Below, piece after piece: positions 41 to 43,420 of a DNA stretch of 47,330 nt. Made by a program: the position numbers and the translations under genes. The notes under the pieces are model-generated. The model was not told where the DNA came from. It saw nothing but the letters and a program-made list of their open reading frames with translations, and did no database searches. Origin of the DNA: Cytophagaceae bacterium. GTDB lineage: Bacteria > Bacteroidota > Bacteroidia > Flavobacteriales > Flavobacteriaceae. How positions within the stretch are numbered: the stretch's first letter is position 1; the number at the start of each line of letters is the position of its first letter. Where the stretch lies: contig PAUP01000089.1 in assembly GCA_002712765.1 (NCBI GenBank), positions 1 to 47,330 on the forward strand, in the 5' to 3' direction.

Positions 41-1276
41 CTAACCTTTAACATCTAAGGCATCCCTTAGTGCGTTACCCATTAACATAAAGGCCATCAC
101 TAATGTCATAATGGCCAAACCAGGAATCAAAGCCAAAAAAGGCTTGCCTAAAATGATATAACTATAATGATCTTTTATCATGGCACCCCAACTGGGCATG
201 GGAGGCTGTGCTCCAATCCCTAAAAAGCTCAATCCACTTTCTATAAGTATAGCTCCAGCAAAATTTGCTGCCGAGATCACGATAAGTGGCGCGACAATAT
301 TGGGAAGTATGTGTCTAAAAATGATACGGCTGTTTGTATAACCTAGCGCCCGAGCCGCAGTGACATATTGCATTTGTTTTACTCCCATAACCTGACCACG
401 CACCACCCGGGCTACTTCAACCCACATCGTTAGTCCTACAGCAATAAAAACCTGCCAAAATCCTTTTCCCAAGGCCAAAGTAATAGCTATGACCAATAAT
501 AGTGTGGGTATGGACCAGGTCACATTGATGATCCACATAATACTGCGATCAATCCACCCCCCAAAATAGCCAGCCATTGCTCCCATAAAAATCCCTATCA
601 ATAAGGAGATTAACACAGCGACAAACCCTATAGAGAATGAGATGCGCGCTCCAACGAGCATTCGGCTTAAAAGGTCACGTCCATAGCGATCTGTCCCTAG
701 GTAAAAGGTACGCCTATCAATGTCTACCATGGCGCTTTGCTCTCCCGTTGGTCGTGAATCTCGCGGGCTCGATGTATCGCTTTGCTCTCCCGCTGGTCGT
801 GAATCTCGCGGGCTCGATTTATCGCTTTGCTCTCCCGATGGTCGTGAATCTCGCGGGCTCGATTTCGCGAAAGCGGAATTCTCTGCGTCTGCTCCCACCT
901 TGAGCTGTTTTGAAATACCTTCAACATCTTCACCAGTGTAGGGCGTGTAGGTCAACACCCCATTGTCAAAAGAATACTTGGCGATAGGAATCTCTGTATC
1001 CGAATTTTTTTTGCCAAAAAAGAAAGTTTCAAAAAAGGATTGATCATACTCCAAGTCTGAAGGTATTGTAAGCATATCAACACTAAAACCCGGTGGTTTA
1101 GAATGTATAGAAATATGCATTTGATTGGCATTCTGGCTATTGTCTGGTGCGATTGCGTAGGCAAAAAGTGCCAATAGCCCGACGAGAGAAATCACCCCCA
1201 AACTCAAAACGCCCCAAAAATTCTTTTTGAACTTTTGGAGCGCTAATTGAGATAATGACTTAGGCGATTGCGCCAT
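41..1276 (-). CDS. ABC transporter permease, DppC/OppC type, with repeat insert
   Basis: Inner-membrane permease of a peptide/nickel-type ABC importer, 411 residues against about 300 usual for the family. One N-terminal membrane helix (about residues 23-43) is followed by a periplasmic stretch of some 140 residues, then the family motif LGTDRYGRDLLSRML and five more helices. The EAA loop that contacts the ATPase is visible as AARALGYTNSRIIFRHILPN. A long loop at this place is usual in Bacteroidota homologues as I remember them, but residues about 137-181 are three 15-residue repeats (SSPRDSRPxGEQSxx) encoded by the 45-bp DNA repeat described separately. It starts 3 bp after the prc stop on the same strand, so the two are probably co-transcribed. 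No ATPase or binding protein is in the window. The family call is firm; the substrate is unknown. Confidence 0.9.
   Translation of the reverse strand: MAQSPKSLSQLALQKFKKNFWGVLSLGVISLVGLLALFAYAIAPDNSQNANQMHISIHSKPPGFSVDMLTIPSDLEYDQSFFETFFFGKKNSDTEIPIAKYSFDNGVLTYTPYTGEDVEGISKQLKVGADAENSAFAKSSPRDSRPSGEQSDKSSPRDSRPAGEQSDTSSPRDSRPTGEQSAMVDIDRRTFYLGTDRYGRDLLSRMLVGARISFSIGFVAVLISLLIGIFMGAMAGYFGGWIDRSIMWIINVTWSIPTLLLVIAITLALGKGFWQVFIAVGLTMWVEVARVVRGQVMGVKQMQYVTAARALGYTNSRIIFRHILPNIVAPLIVISAANFAGAILIESGLSFLGIGAQPPMPSWGAMIKDHYSYIILGKPFLALIPGLAIMTLVMAFMLMGNALRDALDVKG
733..875 (-). repeat. 45-bp tandem repeat array (3 units) plus palindrome, inside a CDS
   Basis: Three units of exactly 45 bp (733-777, 778-822, 823-867) differ at only a few positions. 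The array ends in the palindrome half TTTCGCGAAAGCG (863-875). Read on the minus strand it is GCTTTCGCGAAA running directly into TCGAGCCCGCGAGATTCACG, the same junction as at 43274-43420. Since 45 is divisible by 3, the array stays in frame within the permease gene. Confidence 0.95.
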
Positions 1277-4405: not shown

Positions 4406-4421
4406 CGCTTTCGCGAAAGCG
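4406..4421. repeat. Solo palindrome GCTTTCGCGAAAGC (intergenic)
   Basis: The sequence here is the fully symmetric 16-mer CGCTTTCGCGAAAGCG, between surE and the next gene. No T-run follows, so it does not look like an intrinsic terminator. It belongs to the family with intact copies at 7116, 14322, 23728, 24466 and 33849. Confidence 0.9.
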
Positions 4422-6496: not shown

Positions 6497-8521
6497 ATGC
6501 TGCGTTTAAATCTAGTTATTGTCAAAATTTTTCTTGGTCTAATTTTAGGCTTTTTTGTACACACTTTTTATCCAGCAAGCTTTAATACTAGTCTACGCAT
6601 CACTACTATAGCCTTTTTATCGCTGGTCTTGCTACATCTGCTTGCCATGCGTTACAAATGGCTACCTACTAGTTTTGGTGTCCTTTTATTTATTCAAGGT
6701 GTGGCTTTAGGCATGCTGTTATCGTCATTTCATTCGCCAAAAGCAAAACCCTATCATTATTCTTTAGAGCTTCCCATAGGCAAACAGCTTTATATTGTAA
6801 TGATTAGAGAGGTACTCAAACCTAACAGTTGGAGTACGAGATACATTGCCGATCTCGCTGCGATCAATAAGCAACGCATAGAGGGTGGCGTACTCTTGAC
6901 GATCTCTAGAAAAAATGGCACCACCAAGTTTCATGCTGGCGATTTTGCAGCCATTCACAGCGATCTAAAGGCTTTGCCTAAAACGCGACAGCCCTATCAA
7001 TTTGACTATGCGGCCTATCTAAAAACAAAACATGTTTATGCACAGTTTACTGTAGATTGTGAAGAAGTGCGTGGTTTAACTAAGGAATCTTCACATATAT
7101 TTTACACCCTTTCACGCTTTCGCGAAAGCTTAAAAAGACAACTTCAAACCTACTCCTTTTCTGCACAACAACGCCAAACTCTAGAAGCGCTCATACTTGG
7201 AGATCGTACTGGAATATCTGATGATATGCGCAAGGCCTATGTCGAGGCTGGAATGATTCATATTTTGGCAGTTTCAGGATTGCACGTAGGCATTGTGTTG
7301 TGGTTATTGCGCAGGCTCACAAGCTTTATACATGCGTATCGGTGGCGTTACTGGCGCTCTGGTATCATTATCGCCTGCATTTGGGCCTTTGCTCTTTTTA
7401 CTGGTGGCTCTGCTTCTGTATTGCGGGCAGCAACCATGTTTAGCTTTTTAGAGATTGGTCGTAATGTGGGCGGTCAAAATCAAACGGCCAATGCGCTTTT
7501 GTACTCGGCATTTTTACTAGTACTGATCGACCCGTTATTGCTACATCAAGTGGGGTTTCAATTGAGTTATCTGGCCGTCACTGGCATTTTATGGATACAA
7601 CCTTGGCTCTCTGCCCTATTTCGGTCTCGATATCGCGTGTTGCGCTTTATATGGAACACCCTATCGGTAACGCTTGCGGCACAAATTGCAGTCTTACCAT
7701 TGAGCTTGTACTATTTTCATCAGTTTCCTGGGCTATTTCTACTGTCTAATCTCGTTGTTTTACCTTGTCTAAGTATTGTATTGGTACTTGGAATCCTTGT
7801 AGTTTTTTTAGGAGCTGTCGATATGCTACCCTCTGTTGTAGTCAAAATCATTGGAAGTATCATAGAGGCGATGAATCAATTTATTGCTTGGGTGGCGCGC
7901 CAGGATGACTTTGTTTGGCGTAATATACGTCTCTCAATATGGGTGATGCTTGCCAGTTATCTAAGCATTTATGCACTTATTTTGTGCTTCAAAAAGTATA
8001 GTTACCAAAGACTTCTACTGTGTTTGTTGGTCAGTCTATTGCTATGCAGTCTTCTTTTTTTAGAACACATCCATATTCCTAGATCCCATCTGGCCATTGT
8101 AAACAAGGCGAGAAGCACACGATTGATAGCATATAGCCATAAGACCTTGCAGCTATATCACAACCACTGGGTTGACACTCTCAAGACAGAAACTGTAGTA
8201 TCCAACTACCTATCGGCGGTACCCATAGAGCGATTAGATCAAGATAGCTTGCAAGCGGTGTACAGCATCAATAACAAAAAATTGCTAATTGTAGATAGCC
8301 TAGCTGTTTATGACATAGAAGGCCTTGTTCCTGATGTCATTTTGCTCACTCAATCGCCCAAACTAAACCTCGAACGCTTACTAACAAAATACCCAAAGGT
8401 GACCATAGTAGCCGATGGCAGCAATTATAAATCATATGTAGCACGATGGAAAAAAACCTGTATAAGTCGTGAGATCAACTTTCATAGTACCTATGAACAA
8501 GGGGCCTACATTATGAAATAA
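6497..8521 (+). CDS. comEC: ComEC/Rec2-type DNA uptake channel protein
   Basis: Polytopic inner-membrane protein of the ComEC/Rec2 family, the channel that carries single-stranded DNA inward during transformation. The competence domain is clear: LILGDRTGISDDMRKAYVEA followed by MIHILAVSGLHVGIV (about residues 230-270), then a run of membrane helices to about 525. I chose ATG 6497; the frame also opens at TTG 6491. The C-terminal part (about residues 530-674) is where many homologues carry a metallo-beta-lactamase-type nuclease domain. Here I see no HxHxDH zinc motif, so the domain is inactive or very diverged, as seems common in Bacteroidota. The 14-bp palindrome (7116-7129) is translated within the gene as FRES. 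Confidence 0.93.
   Translation: MLRLNLVIVKIFLGLILGFFVHTFYPASFNTSLRITTIAFLSLVLLHLLAMRYKWLPTSFGVLLFIQGVALGMLLSSFHSPKAKPYHYSLELPIGKQLYIVMIREVLKPNSWSTRYIADLAAINKQRIEGGVLLTISRKNGTTKFHAGDFAAIHSDLKALPKTRQPYQFDYAAYLKTKHVYAQFTVDCEEVRGLTKESSHIFYTLSRFRESLKRQLQTYSFSAQQRQTLEALILGDRTGISDDMRKAYVEAGMIHILAVSGLHVGIVLWLLRRLTSFIHAYRWRYWRSGIIIACIWAFALFTGGSASVLRAATMFSFLEIGRNVGGQNQTANALLYSAFLLVLIDPLLLHQVGFQLSYLAVTGILWIQPWLSALFRSRYRVLRFIWNTLSVTLAAQIAVLPLSLYYFHQFPGLFLLSNLVVLPCLSIVLVLGILVVFLGAVDMLPSVVVKIIGSIIEAMNQFIAWVARQDDFVWRNIRLSIWVMLASYLSIYALILCFKKYSYQRLLLCLLVSLLLCSLLFLEHIHIPRSHLAIVNKARSTRLIAYSHKTLQLYHNHWVDTLKTETVVSNYLSAVPIERLDQDSLQAVYSINNKKLLIVDSLAVYDIEGLVPDVILLTQSPKLNLERLLTKYPKVTIVADGSNYKSYVARWKKTCISREINFHSTYEQGAYIMK
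7116..7129. repeat. Solo palindrome GCTTTCGCGAAAGC inside comEC
   Basis: A perfect 14-bp palindrome read in the phase TTT CGC GAA AGC (FRES), around residue 208 of ComEC, in the soluble stretch before the competence domain. Confidence 0.9.
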
Positions 8522-9160: not shown

Positions 9161-10912
9161 TTATCGCACGCCGTGCATGAGCTTTTTGATAGCAGGATAT
9201 AAAGCCGCCGAGAGCACACCCAATCCTACTGCAATAGCCGTGAGCAACCAGAAAAAATAACTCAAACCTTCTGTTTGGGCTAAGCTTTCTGAATATTCAC
9301 CAAAGACACCTGCCAATTTCATACCTATAGCTACGGCCAAATACCAAATTCCAAACATCATCGCGATCATTCTTCCCGGCACCAATTTGCTCACATAAGA
9401 CAAAGCAACAGGCGAGATACACAATTCGCCCATGGTGTGAAAAAAGTAAACCAATACCAACCAAATCATGCTAACAGAAGCTGTCTTGGCTCCTACGGGT
9501 ATGTCTGAAGAGCCAATAGCCACACAGGCCATCCCTATACCCAGTAATATCATACCAATGGCGTATTTCATATTGGCGTTAGGATTGTACTTACTCTCCC
9601 ACCATTTTGAAAACAACGGGGCAAGGGTAATAATAAATAGTGAGTTTAAAACTCCAAACCAAGAAGCATCAATTTCGGCAATATCTTGATTAAACTTATC
9701 CCACAGACGGTATAAGGCGATATACCAAATAATAACAAAACTCAAGGCCAAAATTACATTGGCCAAACTATAACGCTTAAAGGTATTTTTAAATAATTTG
9801 ATCAACACCCATGTGATTACCACAAGTGGAACGATAGTCATTAATGCGTCAACTACTTTGAAAATCATGGCCGAGTTGCCTTCCAAAATACGATCGGTAT
9901 AATCTCTCGCAAAGATGGTTAATGAGCTTGGTGCTTGCTCGAAAATGGCCCAAAAGAAGATAGTGACAAAGGCAAAAAACACCACCGCCAGCATACGGTC
10001 TCTGGTAATTTTCGCGTAACGCGGAATGCGTAACACCAATAAAAGCACAAAGAGGATCAGTGCTGTTAATATGACCACATTAGGACCGCTTAGCCCAAAC
10101 AAACTAAAGTCAAATAAATTATACGCCCCTTCAGAAATTTTACTCACTGGATCATTTAAAATCCAAGATAGACCAAGTACTGAGGCTATAACGATAAGCG
10201 CCAACTCAAACTTGGTAAAAGGATTGAGCTTGTTGTCTTCGTCGTTCTGGTCGATGACTATATCTATGTTCTTTTGTGGCTTTAAACCAATAGTTCCAAA
10301 AATATCCTGCGCAAACCAAAATTGTAGCAACCCAAATAACATAAAGATTCCAGCTACTCCAAATCCCCAACTCCAGCCTATTTGTTCACCTAAGTAACCA
10401 CAGAGCAAAATCCCTAAAAAGGCCCCCGCATTTACACCCATGTAAAAGATGGTGTAAGCACCGTCTTTTTTACCAGGGCGGTCTTTGTACATCTCAGAGA
10501 TAATCGAAGTCATATTAGGTTTAAAAAAACCGCTTCCAAAGACCAGCAAGGTTAATCCCAAGTAAATAAAAAACTGAGTTTCTAGCGCCATAGCTGCATG
10601 CCCTAGGGTCATTAGTAGTGCGCCTACAACCACAGCCCATCGATATCCGATCTTTTTATCGGCAAAATACCCTCCTAGAAGCGTTGACAAATAAACCAGT
10701 GAGGTATAGGTGCCAAAAATAGCAAAAGCGTGTTCTCTAGGCCATCCCCAACCTCCATCCATGATCGAGGCGGTAAAGAACATAACGAGCAAAGCCCGCA
10801 TGCCATAGTAGGAAAAACGCTCCCACATTTCGGTAAAAAAGAGTACAAATAATCCTGCGGGATGTCCAATAACAGGATTTTCAAAAAACTGATCGGTTGA
10901 ATTTTGTGCCAT
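9161..10912 (-). CDS. POT-family proton-dependent oligopeptide transporter
   Basis: Inner-membrane di-/tripeptide:proton symporter (PTR2/POT family, major facilitator fold) of 583 residues with about 12-14 helices. The proton-coupling motif is EMWERFSYYGMRALL near residues 28-42; GSGFFKPNMTSIISEMY and FYMGVNAGAFLG are further POT signatures. It starts 14 bp after the stop of the first POT gene and is the last gene of the operon headed by the DPP IV gene. It has a longer middle linker (about residues 210-235) than its partner. The family is certain; substrate preference cannot be read. Confidence 0.95.
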   Translation of the reverse strand: MAQNSTDQFFENPVIGHPAGLFVLFFTEMWERFSYYGMRALLVMFFTASIMDGGWGWPREHAFAIFGTYTSLVYLSTLLGGYFADKKIGYRWAVVVGALLMTLGHAAMALETQFFIYLGLTLLVFGSGFFKPNMTSIISEMYKDRPGKKDGAYTIFYMGVNAGAFLGILLCGYLGEQIGWSWGFGVAGIFMLFGLLQFWFAQDIFGTIGLKPQKNIDIVIDQNDEDNKLNPFTKFELALIVIASVLGLSWILNDPVSKISEGAYNLFDFSLFGLSGPNVVILTALILFVLLLVLRIPRYAKITRDRMLAVVFFAFVTIFFWAIFEQAPSSLTIFARDYTDRILEGNSAMIFKVVDALMTIVPLVVITWVLIKLFKNTFKRYSLANVILALSFVIIWYIALYRLWDKFNQDIAEIDASWFGVLNSLFIITLAPLFSKWWESKYNPNANMKYAIGMILLGIGMACVAIGSSDIPVGAKTASVSMIWLVLVYFFHTMGELCISPVALSYVSKLVPGRMIAMMFGIWYLAVAIGMKLAGVFGEYSESLAQTEGLSYFFWLLTAIAVGLGVLSAALYPAIKKLMHGVR

Positions 10913-10926
10913 AATAGTAAGCTAGT

Positions 10927-12495
10927 CTAGTTGATATCTGGATCTGCAGCTTCAAATCCTTCCTGCTCTAATCCTTCTGCCGTTCTTAATTCTTCGGCGC
11001 CATGGGTAAGACGTTTAAGCGGCTTCAACAAGGCGATAACTAGGAGTCCAAAGATCACACAGAAAATGGTTATTCCTGAAAAGATGGTCAACTCACCTGC
11101 CGAAGATGCCGATTCACCTATTAAACCAGCAACCTTATTTCCTAAACCTGTTGCGGCAAAATACACCCCCATCATTAACGCTCCATACCTAACTGGTGCC
11201 AGTTTGGTAATAAAGGATAAAGCTACAGGAGAAGCACTCAATTCTCCAATGGTGTGAAACAAATAGGCTAAGGCCAACCAATACATGGCAGATTTGCCTA
11301 AACTCTCATACTCCATAGAAGCAAAGACCATAAATACAAAGCCGAGACCCATAATGATTACACCTATCGCCATCTTAAATAATGACGATGCCTCTCTCCC
11401 TCGGTTTTTCCACCACGCCCAGAAATTGGCCACGAGTAAGGCAAAAACGATGATGTAAAAGGGATTAAAAAATTGAAAGGCTGCTGCGGGTATTTCGTAC
11501 CCAAACAAAAAGCGATCTGTTCTGTTTTCGGCATAGAGATTCATCAACCCGCCTGCCTGTTCGAAGGCCCCCCAAAATACGATTACAATGATAAATGACA
11601 GTAACAATACGAGATAGCGATCCTTTTCTACTTTAGATCTCAAATCGCCATAAATTGTGCTCATCATCCCTACAACAACCGCTAGAAAAACAAAAAAGAT
11701 CATATAGGCCAATTGTTGTTTTTCGATAAAAAAGTATGCCGAAACCAAACCAAAAATGGCTAAAGCCAAAGTTAAGGTCAAAGGTTTTGTCTTTGAAAAC
11801 TGAGTTTTAAAAATTTGTCCAATAGATACATCGTCGCTGTCCATACTAACACGTACTGGTTTGTTACCTACGTGTTTGATAAAACGTTGCCCAAACATAT
11901 AAACGGCTTGTCCTAGCACCATCCCTATGGCAGCAAGGCCAAAGCCAGCGTGCCAGCCATATCTTTGCGCTACCCAAGCCACAGTCAAACTCGCCAGAGC
12001 GGCACCTACATTAATACCGATATAGAAAATAGAAAAACCCTTGTCGCGTCTTTCGTCACCTTGTCTATACAAACCTCCTACCAAGGTAGAAATGTTCGGT
12101 TTTAATAGCCCCACACCAGAAATAATTAAGCCTAGACCTGTATAAAATGCCCACATTTCTTCTATGGACAAAATTCCGTGACCAGCTACAAGTAATATAC
12201 CCCCAATCATAACGGCTCGCTTTTGACCAATAATCTTGTCGGCAATAATACCTCCCGGAATAGAAGCAACATAGACTAACATCGTATACCATCCATACAA
12301 AGACAAAGCCTCAACGTCTAGCCAACCCAAACCTGGGTTATCCCCAACTGTTTGTGCTGTTAGATACAGAACGAGTATTCCTCTCATCCCATAATAGGAA
12401 AAACGCTCCCACATTTCGGTAAAAAACAGGATATACAAGCCTACTGGATGTCCAAAAAGCTCTTTTTCATGTGCTTGTTTTGTAAGTGATGACAT
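10927..12495 (-). CDS. POT-family proton-dependent oligopeptide transporter (tandem paralogue)
   Basis: Second POT symporter, 522 residues, with the coupling motif EMWERFSYYGMRGIL near residues 27-41, GVGLLKPNISTLVGGLY, and FYIGINVGAALASL. It clearly resembles the gene downstream but is diverged enough to be an old duplication, perhaps with a different peptide range. The C-terminus has an acidic cytosolic tail (EELRTAEGLEQEGFEAADPD). It lies 33 bp downstream of the DPP IV gene, so dipeptides released in the periplasm could be taken up directly by the two transporters. Confidence 0.95.
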   Translation of the reverse strand: MSSLTKQAHEKELFGHPVGLYILFFTEMWERFSYYGMRGILVLYLTAQTVGDNPGLGWLDVEALSLYGWYTMLVYVASIPGGIIADKIIGQKRAVMIGGILLVAGHGILSIEEMWAFYTGLGLIISGVGLLKPNISTLVGGLYRQGDERRDKGFSIFYIGINVGAALASLTVAWVAQRYGWHAGFGLAAIGMVLGQAVYMFGQRFIKHVGNKPVRVSMDSDDVSIGQIFKTQFSKTKPLTLTLALAIFGLVSAYFFIEKQQLAYMIFFVFLAVVVGMMSTIYGDLRSKVEKDRYLVLLLSFIIVIVFWGAFEQAGGLMNLYAENRTDRFLFGYEIPAAAFQFFNPFYIIVFALLVANFWAWWKNRGREASSLFKMAIGVIIMGLGFVFMVFASMEYESLGKSAMYWLALAYLFHTIGELSASPVALSFITKLAPVRYGALMMGVYFAATGLGNKVAGLIGESASSAGELTIFSGITIFCVIFGLLVIALLKPLKRLTHGAEELRTAEGLEQEGFEAADPDIN

Positions 12496-12528: not shown

Positions 12529-14718
12529 TTAAAGGTTCTCCTTTATAAAATTGGTCATTTTGGTAAATAAATGCAATCGCGTATTGCCTCCATAAATACC
12601 GTGGTTTTTATCGGGATAGATCGCCCAGTCAAATTGTTTGTTGGCCTGCACTAGAGCTTCTACCAAAGCCATAGTGTTGTGAAGGTGTACATTGTCATCG
12701 GCGCTACCGTGTACCAATAAAAAGTCACCCTTTAGTTTGTCTACATGAGACACTGGCGAGTTGTCGTCATATCCACTGGGATTTTCCTGTGGTGTTTGCA
12801 TATAGCGCTCTGTATAAATAGTGTCGTAGTATCTCCAGCTGGTTACAGGAGCTACTGCAATAGCCATAGAAAAAGTATCGGCGCCTTGGAACAAACAATT
12901 GGCAGACATAAAGCCACCATAACTCCATCCCCAAATTCCTATACGACTTTGATCTACATAGGCTCTTTCACCAAGTTTTTGTGCCGCAGCGATTTGATCC
13001 TGCACCTCGTAGCGACCTAACTCTTTTTGAGTCATCTTTTTAAAATCTCTTCCTTTTAGACCCGTTCCGCGAGGATCAACACAAACAATGATATAGCCTT
13101 CTTGAGCGAGCATCTGAAACCAATAATCATTAGCACCACCCCAAGAATTTTTGACACTCTGAGAACCTGGCCCTGAATATTGCGTCATAAAAACGGGATA
13201 CTTTTTTGAAGGGTCAAAATTGGCTGGTTTAATCATATAAGCATTCAGACTCGCATTATTCACCTCTATGGTGAAAAACTCTTTAGGAGAAGTCAAATAG
13301 GAATTATACTGTTCCTTTAAGGCCTGGTTGTCTTTGATTACTTTGATTACTTTTCCGTCTTTGGCACTATTTAAAGTAAAACGCCATGGGGTATCTGCAC
13401 TGCTGTACGAATTGATAAAATAAGTAAAGTCTGCACTAAAATCGGCACTGTTGGTTCCTTCTTCTACTGCGAGTTGTTGTTTTTTCTTACCGTTAAGCTG
13501 TATGGCGTACACCCCTCTATTGATCGAACCATTTTCGACACTCTGATAGAATACGCGTTTTGATTTGGGATCAAAACCGTAATAGCTAGTTACCTCCCAT
13601 TTGCCTTGGGTTACCTGCTTTTTTAAACTTCCATCGGCATTGTGATGGTAAATATGGTTAAAGCCATCTTTCTCACTGGTCCAAATAAAGCTGTTATCTT
13701 CAAGAAACGTAAGGTTATCTGTCACATCTACATAGGCTGCATCCCTGTCTACCAAAACCACCTTAGCCAGATTGGTTCTAGTATCATAAAATGACAATTG
13801 TAAGTTATTTTGATGTCTATTAAGCGTTTGTACAGAAAGTATATTGGGGTCTTTAGTCCATTTGATCCGAGGGATATAATATCCCGCACCTGTTCCTAGG
13901 TCTACCTCAATAGCCTGAGCCTGCCGCATACCTTGTTGTCCTACCTTGTAAACGTGTAAGCTCACTGCTGCGTTTTTCTCGCCCGCTTTGGGATATTTAA
14001 AAACTTGTTGTTGCTGGTATAACTCTTTGCCAAAAATATCCATTGAAAACTCTGGCACTTCACGCTCATCAAAACGTATATACGCCAAATGCTTACTATC
14101 GGCACTCCAATCAAATGCTCTTACAAAAGCAAATTCTTCTTCATATACCCAGTCTGTGATGCCATTGATAATTTGGTTCAACAAACCGTCATAGGTCACT
14201 TGTTCTACATCACCAGTAGCGATGTCAAAAATAAAGATGTTGTTGTCTTTTCCATAAGCTACTTTGGTGCCGTCTGGTGAAAAGGTGGGTTCTTGTACCA
14301 AATCGTCAGACAACTTTGTGAGCTTTCGCGAAAGCGTATTATAAATATAAAACTCCCCTAAAGTCGATCTTCTGTAAATAGACTGTAATTTTGTTGAGAG
14401 TAAAACCTGCTCTTCTTTGGGCCCAAATTCATAACTGATAAAGTAATCTAGCCCTTCAATATCCTTAGTACTTACCGCAGTTCTCACCTTTTCTCCAGAA
14501 GTGTAATCATAGATATCGACACTGCCTATTCTCGCAGCTCTATCGTAATTCTGGACGGCATATTGGGTTCCGTTGGCCATAGAGTGCAAACGATCCAAAC
14601 GTTGCATTCTAAAAGTACCATCTTTCCAAATATCTTCTAGTGTTATTGATTTTTTTTGCGCAGTAATTGCCGTAGATGCCAGTAAGAATATGGCAACAAA
14701 AAAGGAAGGAAATCTCAT
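12529..14718 (-). CDS. Dipeptidyl peptidase IV (S9 family)
   Basis: Exported serine peptidase that removes X-Pro or X-Ala dipeptides from the N-termini of peptides; 729 residues with a signal peptide (about 1-20). The beta-propeller includes DWVYEEEFA, holding the double glutamate that binds the substrate amino group. The alpha/beta-hydrolase domain has GWSYGGFMSA (nucleophile near residue 598), HGSADDNVH (aspartate near 672) and DKNHGIYGG (histidine near 705). It is the first gene of a three-gene operon with two POT transporters. A solo palindrome at 14322-14335 is translated as LSRK near residue 130. Confidence 0.96.
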   Translation of the reverse strand: MRFPSFFVAIFLLASTAITAQKKSITLEDIWKDGTFRMQRLDRLHSMANGTQYAVQNYDRAARIGSVDIYDYTSGEKVRTAVSTKDIEGLDYFISYEFGPKEEQVLLSTKLQSIYRRSTLGEFYIYNTLSRKLTKLSDDLVQEPTFSPDGTKVAYGKDNNIFIFDIATGDVEQVTYDGLLNQIINGITDWVYEEEFAFVRAFDWSADSKHLAYIRFDEREVPEFSMDIFGKELYQQQQVFKYPKAGEKNAAVSLHVYKVGQQGMRQAQAIEVDLGTGAGYYIPRIKWTKDPNILSVQTLNRHQNNLQLSFYDTRTNLAKVVLVDRDAAYVDVTDNLTFLEDNSFIWTSEKDGFNHIYHHNADGSLKKQVTQGKWEVTSYYGFDPKSKRVFYQSVENGSINRGVYAIQLNGKKKQQLAVEEGTNSADFSADFTYFINSYSSADTPWRFTLNSAKDGKVIKVIKDNQALKEQYNSYLTSPKEFFTIEVNNASLNAYMIKPANFDPSKKYPVFMTQYSGPGSQSVKNSWGGANDYWFQMLAQEGYIIVCVDPRGTGLKGRDFKKMTQKELGRYEVQDQIAAAQKLGERAYVDQSRIGIWGWSYGGFMSANCLFQGADTFSMAIAVAPVTSWRYYDTIYTERYMQTPQENPSGYDDNSPVSHVDKLKGDFLLVHGSADDNVHLHNTMALVEALVQANKQFDWAIYPDKNHGIYGGNTRLHLFTKMTNFIKENL
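14322..14335. repeat. Solo palindrome GCTTTCGCGAAAGC inside the DPP IV gene
   Basis: A perfect copy read on the minus strand as CTT TCG CGA AAG (LSRK), in the propeller domain. The surrounding 16 bases at 14321-14336 are AGCTTTCGCGAAAGCG. Confidence 0.9.
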
Positions 14719-22816: not shown

Positions 22817-24064
22817 TTAATTAAATTTTGTCTTCTGAAACCAAATGTCGTTGAGAGAAAAACTCACATACACATTAAAAAAAGTTTCTTCGACTAGGTT
22901 GGCGTTTGTAGTGCCACGCTGTCCAAATTCAAATCCAAGGTTTGCATTACTTAGATAACGTCCAGCGGGTAGTCCTAATCCAAAAGATATGCCAAACTCG
23001 TTTATCGCCTCGTCTTCAATTACAATCCCACTCTCTTCATACCTAAATCCAGCCCTGTAATTTACTCGCTGCCAGTAACTTGTTACCGAATTGTATTTTG
23101 GCACATAAAATCCTCCTACACGTATCTGCGTAGCGTCTTCAAACACTACATTATCTAAAGTAAAGGTGCGATTGGTAAAGTTACTAGATTTTTGTTGGGT
23201 AACCTCACCTCCTACAAACCATTTATTACGCGCTCCTACCCCTAAGCCCAAAGTCAAAGAAGAAGGATACTCAAAATCGGTATCTGGCACATTGATATCT
23301 CTGGTATCTAAGGGTTGTATCAACCCGAGATTATTAAAGAGTACCGATGACACACTTCTGGTATTGTCAGAAGATATATCGCTTGCCGGCACATAAACTA
23401 CAGAAGAGTATAAAGTCATCTGTTCATTGAGTTTTGCCTGATATTGTGCCGCAATGTCAAAAGTCAACCCACTCAGGTCAGAACGATTTCTTTCTTGAGT
23501 TCCCAACTCGACGTTTTCTTGCGTTCTCAATGACTCGTTTTGAATATTACCAAAATTGTAATTGACGTTTACCCCAATATTTAATCCTTTAAAAACATTG
23601 TATCCTGCACCTAAAAAAACGCGATTGATCCCACCTCGTCCCGAAAAGCGATTAAAAGAAAAATCAGTGCCATTGTCAATTCTATACCCTACCGAAGTAT
23701 ATGGCATAAGACCAAAACTCACCCCGAGCTTTCGCGAAAGCGGAAACCCTAATGCCAAATAATCAAAAGTAGTCACCGAAGTTTCATTTTGAGTATTGCT
23801 GTCTTCTATGGTACGTTCTGAGTGACTTCCCCCAACTGTGAAAGTGACAAAACGCAAATTTCCTAAAGCAGCAGGATTGGTAATATTAAGATGCAAACTA
23901 TCTCCATAAGTACTCAATCCGGCCATAGATCGGTTTTCTACAGTGCCCTTAAATTGCTGTGTACCTATTCCGTAAAATGAATAAGGAGAAGCAGTTGCTC
24001 CCTCTTGACCATAACTCACTAAGGTCACCAACACTAGCACTGCTAAACATAAATTTTTAATCAT
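22817..24064 (-). CDS. Outer-membrane beta-barrel protein
   Basis: 415 residues with a signal peptide (cleavage near SYGQ). Alternating hydrophobic and polar strands resemble OmpP1/FadL/TodX-type channels, for example RVFLGAGYNVFKGLNIGVNV and NRSMAGLSTYGDSLHLNITN, where an N-terminal NPA segment (NPAALG) is typical. The substrate is unknown; the family often carries hydrophobic compounds. The start overlaps the 3' end of coaX by 8 bp. The palindrome at 23728-23741 is translated as LSRK near residue 110 in a barrel strand or turn. Confidence 0.82.
   Translation of the reverse strand: MIKNLCLAVLVLVTLVSYGQEGATASPYSFYGIGTQQFKGTVENRSMAGLSTYGDSLHLNITNPAALGNLRFVTFTVGGSHSERTIEDSNTQNETSVTTFDYLALGFPLSRKLGVSFGLMPYTSVGYRIDNGTDFSFNRFSGRGGINRVFLGAGYNVFKGLNIGVNVNYNFGNIQNESLRTQENVELGTQERNRSDLSGLTFDIAAQYQAKLNEQMTLYSSVVYVPASDISSDNTRSVSSVLFNNLGLIQPLDTRDINVPDTDFEYPSSLTLGLGVGARNKWFVGGEVTQQKSSNFTNRTFTLDNVVFEDATQIRVGGFYVPKYNSVTSYWQRVNYRAGFRYEESGIVIEDEAINEFGISFGLGLPAGRYLSNANLGFEFGQRGTTNANLVEETFFNVYVSFSLNDIWFQKTKFN
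23728..23741. repeat. Solo palindrome GCTTTCGCGAAAGC inside the barrel-protein gene
   Basis: A perfect copy read on the minus strand as CTT TCG CGA AAG (LSRK), the same phase as in the DPP IV gene. Confidence 0.9.
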
Positions 24065-24782
24065 TCGTCAATTTTAAAATGTAATTAAGTCCCTCCAGCA
24101 AAAAATTTGAGTGCGCAAAGATGCTATTTTTTAATCGTTTTGACAACACCTTAGCGTCTCCACCTGTTAAAACGACAATAAGGGGATCATATTTTTCTTT
24201 GTATTGCAAAATTATACCATCTATCTCTTGCACAAGCCCGCCAATCACTCCAGAGTGAATCGAGCTACTTGTCGTATCGCCTATTAATTGAAAATCTTCG
24301 GTTACCGATAGTAAAGGCAACTTTGCGGTATGCTTATGTAAAGCGGCATATCGCAAACCCAACCCAGGAGATATGGCGCCGCCGTGATAGTTGTTTTTGG
24401 CATCGATAAAATCATAGGTTACACAGGTGCCTGCATCGATTATCAAACCGTTTTTTTCTGGATACGCTTTCGCGAAAGCGGCCACAAGCCCAAGACGATC
24501 TACCCCTAAAGTATGCGGGGTTTGATACCTATTATGAAAAGGCATGGGTGTACGATGATCTAATACGACGGTAGGAAAACGATTTTGAATAGCGCGCATT
24601 TGCACCTCAGAAAGATTGCCTACACTTGCAATAATAGCCTTTGTAATGGCAAACTTACTAATGAGTATTGGCAAAGCGGCTGTAATATGATCTAAGACCA
24701 CTTCCTGTCTTTCGAGAAGTTTGTCTTCTTTAAAAACAGCAAGTTTTATCTTTGTATTTCCTGCGTCAACTACAAGTTGCAT
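24057..24782 (-). CDS. coaX: Type III pantothenate kinase
   Basis: Phosphorylates pantothenate, the first step of CoA synthesis, in the cytosol. I start it at Met 24782, giving 241 residues that begin MQLVVDAGNTKIKLAVF, the phosphate-binding loop expected at the very N-terminus. The frame is open 27 codons further upstream, but that part has no family likeness. Other motifs: HTLGVDRLGLVAA, LIIDAGTCVTYDFI (catalytic aspartate) and GGAISPGLGLRYAAL. Length normal. It is probably the first gene of the envelope operon downstream. The palindrome at 24466-24479 is translated as AFAKA near residue 103 without making the protein longer than expected. Confidence 0.95.
   Translation of the reverse strand: MQLVVDAGNTKIKLAVFKEDKLLERQEVVLDHITAALPILISKFAITKAIIASVGNLSEVQMRAIQNRFPTVVLDHRTPMPFHNRYQTPHTLGVDRLGLVAAFAKAYPEKNGLIIDAGTCVTYDFIDAKNNYHGGAISPGLGLRYAALHKHTAKLPLLSVTEDFQLIGDTTSSSIHSGVIGGLVQEIDGIILQYKEKYDPLIVVLTGGDAKVLSKRLKNSIFAHSNFLLEGLNYILKLTND
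24466..24479. repeat. Solo palindrome GCTTTCGCGAAAGC inside coaX
   Basis: A perfect copy within the symmetric 16-mer CGCTTTCGCGAAAGCG (24465-24480), read on the minus strand as GCT TTC GCG AAA GCG (AFAKA). Confidence 0.9.
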
Positions 24783-29746: not shown

Positions 29747-29895
29747 TTTCGCTTTTGCGAAACCGAGCTTGCGAGGTTCACGACCGCAGGGAGAGCAACG
29801 CGATAAACCGAGCTAGCGAGGTTCACGACCGCAGGGAGAGCAACGCGATAAACCGAGCTAGCGAGGTTGACAACCTAGGGAAGAAAATGCTAAAG
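29747..29895 (+). repeat. 45-bp tandem repeat array (3 units) with degenerate palindrome
   Basis: A decayed palindrome, TTTCGCTTTTGCGAAA (29747-29762), runs into units at 29761-29805, 29806-29850 and 29851-29895. The first two are nearly identical; the third has diverged. The unit begins AACCGAGCTAGCGAGGTTCA, a variant of the units at 43286. It fills most of the gap between convergent polA and the DUF5916 gene; the rest of the gap (29634-29746) holds nothing I can name. Confidence 0.93.
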
Positions 29896-33847: not shown

Positions 33848-33863
33848 CGCTTTCGCGAAAGCT
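33848..33863. repeat. Solo palindrome GCTTTCGCGAAAGC between rpsI and rpsB
   Basis: The perfect 14-mer is at 33849-33862, flanked by C and T. No T-run follows, so it is not a standard terminator. It lies upstream of the rpsB leader hairpin. Confidence 0.9.
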
Positions 33864-36713: not shown

Positions 36714-37074
36714 ACAGTAATACAACGAAATTCACAGCCTTCAACAAGGGTCTAACCGTCTTAATGTGTTAATCTTTATCGGGATTTGCCTCATCCCTAC
36801 AAACTATTACACCTATCACCTATGATTCATAGAAACATACCCGATAGATGACCATGGGCTACTTTGTTGCTGTGCTCACTAATTGATTGTGATGCTCTTG
36901 AGTTTTTGGTGTATTGCGCTACTCTCTCGTTTGCCCAGAATCTCACATGCTCGATTTATCGCATTGCGCTCCCTAGGATTGTGAATCTTTCAAGCTCGAT
37001 TTGGCGAAAGCCTAATACCTTAATCACAATTGAGAATCTTGATCTTTATCATCGGTTAGAATCACGTTATAATG
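36714..37074. other. Intergenic interval upstream of pyrH
   Basis: A gap between divergent genes that holds only the decayed repeat array at 36917-37012. The open frame running into pyrH from 36864 crosses the array and has no family likeness, so I do not treat it as coding. Confidence 0.7.
36917..37012 (-). repeat. Decayed 45-bp repeat array (2 units) with half palindrome
   Basis: Two degenerate units (about 36917-36959 and 36960-37000) keep landmarks such as TGCTCGATTTATCGC and AAGCTCGATTTGGCGAAAGCC. The palindrome end (37001-37012) is GGCGAAAGCC-like rather than CGCGAAAGCG. Orientation matches the array in the permease gene. Many substitutions and one short unit suggest an old, inactive copy. 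Confidence 0.8.
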
Positions 37075-43273: not shown

Positions 43274-43420
43274 GCGCTTCCGCGAAATCGAGCCTGCGAG
43301 ATTCACGACCGTAGGGAGAGCAAAGCGTTAAATCGAGCCTGCGAGATTCACGACCGTAGGGAGAGCAAAGCGAGAAATCGAGCCTGTGAGATTCACAACC
43401 GTAAGGAGAGCAAAGCGATA
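43274..43420 (+). repeat. 45-bp tandem repeat array (3 units) with variant palindrome
   Basis: GCGCTTCCGCGAAA (43274-43287, one change from the palindrome) runs into units 43286-43330, 43331-43375 and 43376-43420. The first two are almost identical; the third has several changes. The unit starts AATCGAGCCTGCGAGATTCA and ends in an A/G-rich AGAGCAAAGCG part. It ends 31 bp before the asnS -7 element. Confidence 0.95.

Follow-up and report, generated by a model that had tools for sequence, protein, structure and literature searches.

Pneumococcal BOX elements are modular repeats with two ends and, between these, 45-bp modules repeated in tandem to a varying extent. As far as the available parts of the two sources go, the RPEs are short palindromic repeat DNA found in frame within protein-coding genes (PMC10969869, PMC3733652). 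In the accessible portion of the second paper, the GTAG-23 REP of T. roseum is inserted within a small palindrome that has hundreds of genome copies, and REP clusters encode stretches of 43 to 82 residues within Thauera and R. conorii ORFs (PMC3733652). PARCEL, according to the available text, is tandem palindromic DNA that encodes peptide repeats in varying number and is believed to be mobile within genomes (PMC2996958). The cyanobacterial HIP1 (GCGATCGC) is a highly iterated palindrome of high genomic frequency, and the available text of the HIP1 paper makes no mention of Bacteroid-, Flavobacter-, Dokdonia or transpos- terms (PMC4390886). We consider it probable that the array of 45-nt units analysed here, which lies within a permease gene, is a non-autonomous structured repeat that was inserted into a pre-existing, highly iterated palindrome and then expanded in tandem.

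The window, the whole stretch of 47,330 nucleotides that was analysed, is contig C89 of a 2.77-Mb genome (G000) in 107 contigs and 78% complete. From sequence, the genus of G000 and of 17 further genomes, here called congeners (among them G001, 85% complete), is taken as Dokdonia, so that the genus set comprises 18 genomes. The original prediction had placed three 45-bp units in frame within a DppC-type permease, and this was borne out both by one uninterrupted minus-strand ORF and by TRF, which returned a 45-bp unit with 3.0 copies at 733-865 and 96% matches. Pfam recognised BPD_transp_1 (E 1.6e-25) and OppC_N (E 2.5e-6) in the protein, and solved OppC/DppC chains resemble it from residue 185 or 191 onward. 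The units encode residues 139-183 (SSPRDSRPSGEQSDK / SSPRDSRPAGEQSDT / SSPRDSRPTGEQSAM); the predicted 45 added residues are therefore present, at a position two residues after the predicted 137-181. A repeat had likewise been expected at 733-875; its units occupy 731-865, and 866-874 belongs to the left part of a palindrome and not to the repeat. The insert follows the first membrane segment and precedes the conserved GTD..GRD region. This position, between OppC_N (residues 7-61) and the segment from 185 that aligns with the OppC structure, fits the predicted placement in a periplasmic loop, given the topology of the family. The features of the window are collected in Table 1.

Table 1. Repeat units, palindromes and the permease gene in the window.
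Feature	Position	Strand	Evidence
DppC/OppC-type ABC permease gene with insert, 411 aa	41..1276	-	ORF; Pfam PF00528, PF12911; PDB DppC/OppC chains
Place of palindrome right part, decayed: ATGGTA here, AAAGC plus one base in congeners	725..730	-	
45-bp unit 3, with GCGCC at its end in place of GCGAT	731..775	-	TRF and sequence reading
45-bp unit 2	776..820	-	TRF and sequence reading
45-bp unit 1, first in gene direction, codes (K)SSPRDSRPSGEQSD	821..865	-	TRF and sequence reading
Left part GCTTTCGCG of target palindrome GCTTTCGCGAAAGC	866..874	-	Palindrome intact here in 16/16 congeners
Empty palindrome GCTTTCGCGAAAGC	4407..4420	.	Sequence match
Empty palindrome	7116..7129	.	Sequence match
Empty palindrome	14322..14335	.	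Sequence match
Empty palindrome	23728..23741	.	Sequence match
Empty palindrome	24466..24479	.	Sequence match
Intergenic array, two full units and a decayed third, between GCTTTTGCG and AAAGC; end approximate	29760..29890	+	TRF 29760-29875
Empty palindrome	33849..33862	.	Sequence match
Degenerate two-unit copy after GCTTTCGCC	36913..37002	-	Sequence reading
Intergenic three-unit array after GCTTCCGCG	43285..43419	+	TRF

Alignment of orthologous permeases, the check that had been proposed, found the 45 residues missing from every one of the 16 congeners whose orthologue is comparable (361-366 aa vs 411) and from 12 other permeases of the family or order, 28 of 28 in total; the permease of the remaining congener, G006, is only a 59-residue fragment at a contig end and stands outside the 16 compared. 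An ancestral permease domain lost elsewhere was ruled out by this distribution. At the site itself the 16 congeners carry the exact palindrome GCTTTCGCGAAAGC, read as AFAKA between varying flanking codons. G000 has GCTTTCGCG there, followed by the three 45-nt units and the decayed right part. An insertion site that was already a highly iterated palindrome would explain the landing place of the element. With three further copies in the window and the 45-nt family at more than 20 places in G000, the array in the permease is not a product of chance.

An artefact of assembly or binning is hardly credible as the source of the array. G000 is an incomplete metagenome-assembled genome, several of its arrays lie at contig ends, and less than 1 kb separates the permease array from the edge of its 47-kb contig; against this, the array is in frame inside a gene, and the same elements and junctions recur elsewhere, including in the one-contig genome G004 and in Dokdonia pacifica DSM 25597. 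The G000 arrays that stop at contig ends are on C6, C20, C40, C71, C73, C79 and C90, and longer arrays therefore probably broke the assembly, so that the true unit numbers are underestimated. Within the window, blastn matches (stretches from seven congeners) end between 16.2 and 25.6 kb, short of the arrays at 29760, 36913 and 43285. The window also holds a 104-nt direct repeat of 78% identity (10780-10883 and 12366-12469), which joins two adjacent minus-strand ORFs, perhaps paralogous genes.

The array splits the palindrome as GCTTTCGCG, then n units of 45 nt, then AAAGC, and most other copies examined are placed in the same way. Since AAA stands at both edges, one unit can be read as a core of 42 nt and a duplicated AAA of 3 nt. 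Junctions were counted for elements from chosen loci, with contig-edge copies left out and with tandem and decayed copies common in G000. With up to one mismatch allowed, the left part precedes 17 of 23 G000 elements and 41 of 50 congener elements examined, against a background of 36 of 47308 window positions (0.08%). AAAGC follows exactly in 5 of 23 and 41 of 50, and with at most one mismatch in 16 of 23 and 49 of 50. Six G000 copies and nine congener copies are without the left part at this tolerance. Two of the six (L039, L053) are register effects, as their 46-nt units do start after GCTTTCGCG, and in six of the nine the sequence just before the element is GAAGTRCR, with which another module ends; that module itself sits between the palindrome parts at L242 and L104. 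In the 46-nt units of the L039 and L053 arrays the first loop is longer (GAGCATAGCGAG), and inside a gene a unit of this length would disrupt the reading frame. In many copies inspected, the element ends form an 8-bp stem, TACGCTTT/AAAGCGTA (compare the terminal inverted repeats of MITEs, 15-30 bp). Among 12 G000 arrays, units differ at a mean of 5.3 positions within an array and 9.6 between arrays, and change within arrays is not concentrated in the variable triloop, which holds 41 of the 197 differences.

Further inserts occur at or in these elements. A second module, about AAAGCGAAGTTTATACTGAGCTTGTCGAAGTGCG, was found between the parts of GCTTTCGCGAAAGC at L104, L110, L146, L153 and L242, either alone (L242) or beside the 45-nt unit. 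A nested and roughly palindromic insert like CCTGCCTGCCGGCAGGCAGG lies between GAGA (or GAGAC) and TTCACGACC in 45-nt units at L095, L146, L173 and L372. The strict unit pattern matches 9 of the 18 genus genomes, and its element counts are lower bounds, as a diverged unit in G013 escapes it. G000, G010 and G014 are rich in the element, and G003, G005, G007, G008 and G016 are poor in it. Outside the genus, single-unit elements with palindromic ends are present, among the matches listed, in two Winogradskyella genomes and one Algibacter genome. Named-genome matches outside Flavobacteriaceae, again among those listed, were taken as chance, since they are mostly in GC-rich or unrelated groups; L115 is the one inspected in detail.

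The palindrome itself is far more abundant than the element. It occurs in 369-905 copies per genome in all 18 genus genomes, with 369 in the incomplete G000, 385-905 in the 17 congeners and 903 both in G010 and in Dokdonia pacifica DSM 25597; the reversed-sequence control gave 0. No copies were found in 21 genomes of other genera counted alongside the genus. In a wider family sample, 80 of 397 genomes, two of them in the Dokdonia genus, have at least one palindrome, and high counts (408-664) outside the genus are confined to four genomes, three from genus g26 and one from g206; the rest have 1-19. Like a highly iterated palindrome, the motif thus has hundreds of copies, far above chance, in genic and intergenic DNA. 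Over 408 kb drawn from the window plus seven congeners, ORFs of at least 100 aa contain 63 of the 95 palindromes, below the expectation from the coding fraction of 0.898, and these occur in all three frames (26, 18 and 19). In the low-count genomes of other genera G138, G124, G115 and G251, the palindromes are clustered with a recurrent 933-bp spacing, which suggests a common transferred island. The literal palindrome was not found in the open literature searched, outside which most subscription journals lie.

This abundance bears on the order of events. If the filled form were ancestral, the 14-bp palindrome would be the scar of a precise loss of units between the two AAA edges. A deletion between the AAA repeats restores the palindrome exactly, and the element-bearing Winogradskyella and Algibacter genomes have only 6, 17 and 0 palindromes. 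In the permease tree G000 lies near the base with G011 in an unresolved branching, so that the permease site alone gives no polarity; the same tree joins G001 and G017 as sisters (100/99) and G013 with G010, G014 and G015 (92/94). We nevertheless regard ancestral filling as improbable. The palindrome count of the genus is many-fold above the strict-pattern unit count, itself a lower bound, and a second gene bears on the polarity. In a GT9 glycosyltransferase, one unit is present in G001 and in its sister G017. Among 15 other orthologues (G006 gave none), 13 carry the exact empty palindrome, those of the basal G000 and 12 others, one carries it with one mismatch and one is without it. Loss would have to be precise and repeated to produce this pattern.

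In-frame gain of units relative to orthologues was found in three more genes besides the permease and GT9. In 3-hydroxyacyl-CoA dehydrogenase, G017 has one unit and G013 a diverged one, and in eight others the palindrome is exact and empty; unit and palindrome are both absent from G000, and the remaining seven genomes gave only lower-scoring, probably paralogous matches. Because the permease tree does not make G017 and G013 sisters, two separate fillings of the dehydrogenase site are probable. ThiE has one unit in G001; among 14 others, two have the exact palindrome, two are one base off, two are two bases off and eight are without it. CysQ has three units in G000, and the 15 others comprise three with the exact palindrome (G005, G008, G012), one with one mismatch and 11 without. 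These exact CysQ palindromes precede the G000 units by about 14 alignment residues and stand in a different frame; the two appear to share a loop and not clearly a site.

By ORF and domain evidence, further units lie in a family 2 glycosyltransferase near its start (L044), in a glycosyltransferase group 1 protein (L046), in a GNAT acetyltransferase, where two units run in reverse orientation (L050), and in an APH-M23-aminotransferase protein with one unit between domains, in another frame (L082). L137, from a Winogradskyella MAG, and L373, from a g26 genome, have in common a 2.4-kb stretch of 89% DNA identity that includes a gene tail with the 45-nt unit, and this stretch was probably transferred. 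Most of the counted gene insertions read AFAK-SSxRDSRPxGExSxK or close to it. Nine of 11 in-gene cases, picked by eye, are in forward frame 0 (binomial p 1.3e-4 vs 1/4), and seven of nine when L044 and L046 are omitted (p 1.3e-3). The 11 are the permease, CysQ, the dehydrogenase twice, GT9, ThiE, L044, L046, L137/L373, L082 and L050; other spanning ORFs (e.g. L087, L281, L278, L285 and L260) were excluded, being probably spurious or located upstream. The frame bias is only suggestive of selection on the reading frame of in-gene units.

The original prediction also held that the unit has open frames in several phases on both strands and that the element can act as a source of new low-complexity protein sequence. 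The first statement agrees with the 98 units, in which two forward frames are open in 95 and 49 and two reverse frames in 90 and 69; the other two of the six frames are open in just 5 and 1. By our estimate, four of six frames open over 15 codons is not in itself unusual. As to the second, the in-frame gains in the permease and the four other genes support the view of the element as a recurrent source of mostly hydrophilic, low-complexity encoded peptide.

Evidence for structure in the unit came from covariation, measured by corrected mutual information with 5000 shuffles in 89 of the 98 units (nine were dropped for register), the relatedness of units being ignored. The top five pairs, all Watson-Crick and matched by 0 of 5000 shuffles, are 37-41 (C-G 63, T-A 23), 4-17 (T-A 72, C-G 11), 8-13 (G-C 74, A-T 10), 36-42 (G-C 76, A-T 10) and 9-12 (C-G 74, T-A 6). 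They form the first and the last hairpin of the unit. A middle hairpin would have the same layout, and its pairs 25-31 and 26-30 are nearly invariant and do not covary significantly (p 0.12 and 0.15). Tandem G.A/A.G oppositions are conserved in the first two helices, and the last has one conserved A.G at 35-43 (84 of 89), with 34-44 variable. Nearest-neighbour folding did not prefer this layout in a single-unit element (z -0.20 as DNA, -0.92 as RNA) or in a two-unit element as DNA (z +0.37). Folding energies being unremarkable, the case for hairpins is the covariation itself, and two short hairpins per unit, as DNA or RNA, are likely rather than proved. The single-strand structure of the unit seems to be under selection. 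The window and three loci gave no Rfam match at the gathering threshold.

Hairpin structure recalls REPs, which a host Y1 tyrosine transposase (RAYT) would move, and REPs can, in the available text, lie inside small palindromes of hundreds of copies (PMC3733652). We nonetheless think it quite improbable that such a system moves the unit. There is no constant GTAG or CGTC tag over 98 units, GTAG arising only via the variable bases 27-29. The Y1 transposase family PF01797 is present in four of 18 genus genomes (G006, G009, G011 and G015), that is, in three of nine pattern-positive vs one of nine pattern-negative genomes, with no clear fit to element load. It was not found in the element-bearing genomes G000, G001, G004, G010, G014 and G017, several of them near-complete. 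RAYT as a sufficient explanation was ruled out by this absence. Present-day dependence on a Y1 transposase is unlikely, and a RAYT that was lost or plasmid-borne may have acted.

The main rival to insertion as we propose it dispenses with a dedicated enzyme. Template switching at the palindrome hairpin in replication would move the unit via microhomology, and the element edges share 12 nt and 5 nt of identity with every palindrome. The lack of a detected Y1 transposase in several element-bearing genomes agrees with it, as do the nested and alternative modules at one site. Template switching would, however, need contact between unlinked loci, and the conserved hairpins suggest recognition of the unit itself. 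We judge it unlikely, with some weight in its favour.

Insertion of a structured repeat into the iterated palindrome, which we prefer, would proceed as follows. One unit would be placed in trans into a palindrome through the short identity GCTTTCGCGAAA / AAAGC, either enzymatically or through a copying event at a hairpin or cruciform. The unit could then multiply in tandem by slippage or unequal recombination, and its length keeps the frame (45 = 3 x 15). Within genes, only open copies giving a tolerable hydrophilic peptide would survive, which would explain the common reading of the gene insertions. Points against this reading are the Y1 distribution, the folding energies, the invariant middle hairpin, the CysQ sites, the copies that lack a left part and the shortage of palindromes in ORFs. 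A wider view, which we put forward tentatively and hold to be possible rather than probable, is that in Dokdonia and no fewer than two other Flavobacteriaceae genera the palindrome serves as a docking site across the genome, where an undescribed enzyme inserts several modules at one position and the 45-nt unit, being frame-neutral, steadily writes new hydrophilic segments into conserved proteins. The candidate modules are the 45-nt multi-hairpin unit, the second module of about 34 nt and the nested palindromes of about 20 nt.

One site exists in close genomes in hundreds of empty copies and tens of filled ones, which makes the order of events, the point of insertion and the filter of protein function directly measurable, and the permease, the glycosyltransferase, the dehydrogenase and ThiE are named cases for the effect of an in-frame gain on a protein. 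No description of the 45-nt element was found in titles and abstract openings of the open Dokdonia and repeat literature, and it may be published elsewhere.

Among known systems, the Dokdonia unit resembles the Rickettsia RPE in its in-frame insertion relative to orthologues, here in the permease, GT9, dehydrogenase, ThiE and CysQ. By description it is set apart from RPE, about 150 bp as first reported, by its 45-nt length and frequent tandem arrangement in G000, and also by landing in one palindrome that has hundreds of empty copies. Like the REP of T. roseum, as the available text presents it, the Dokdonia repeat sits inside a small palindrome with hundreds of copies. Unlike REPs, it lacks a constant GTAG/CGTC tag and has a different hairpin layout with G.A mismatches, several element-bearing genomes are without a detected Y1 transposase, and orthologous empty and filled sites are documented for it. 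The palindrome differs from HIP1 in its 14-bp core GCTTTCGCGAAAGC, in its occurrence in Flavobacteriaceae and in serving as a module insertion site, a property that, to our knowledge, HIP1 does not have. Likened to BOX by description, the element differs in that its ends form one palindrome existing alone in hundreds of copies. PARCEL, as far as its available text goes, is a 25-residue amphipathic motif in ORFs without assigned functions, whereas the Dokdonia unit is a hydrophilic 15-residue one in conserved genes. The available parts of two papers already describe REPs in small many-copy palindromes (T. roseum) as well as the insertion of REPs or RPEs into ORFs (PMC3733652, PMC10969869). What seems new is the combination of an iterated palindrome of Flavobacteriaceae, a frame-neutral multi-hairpin module of 45 nt, and orthologous empty and filled pairs in conserved genes, which joins three topics usually kept separate: the iterated palindrome, the apparently mobile structured repeat and new protein segments.
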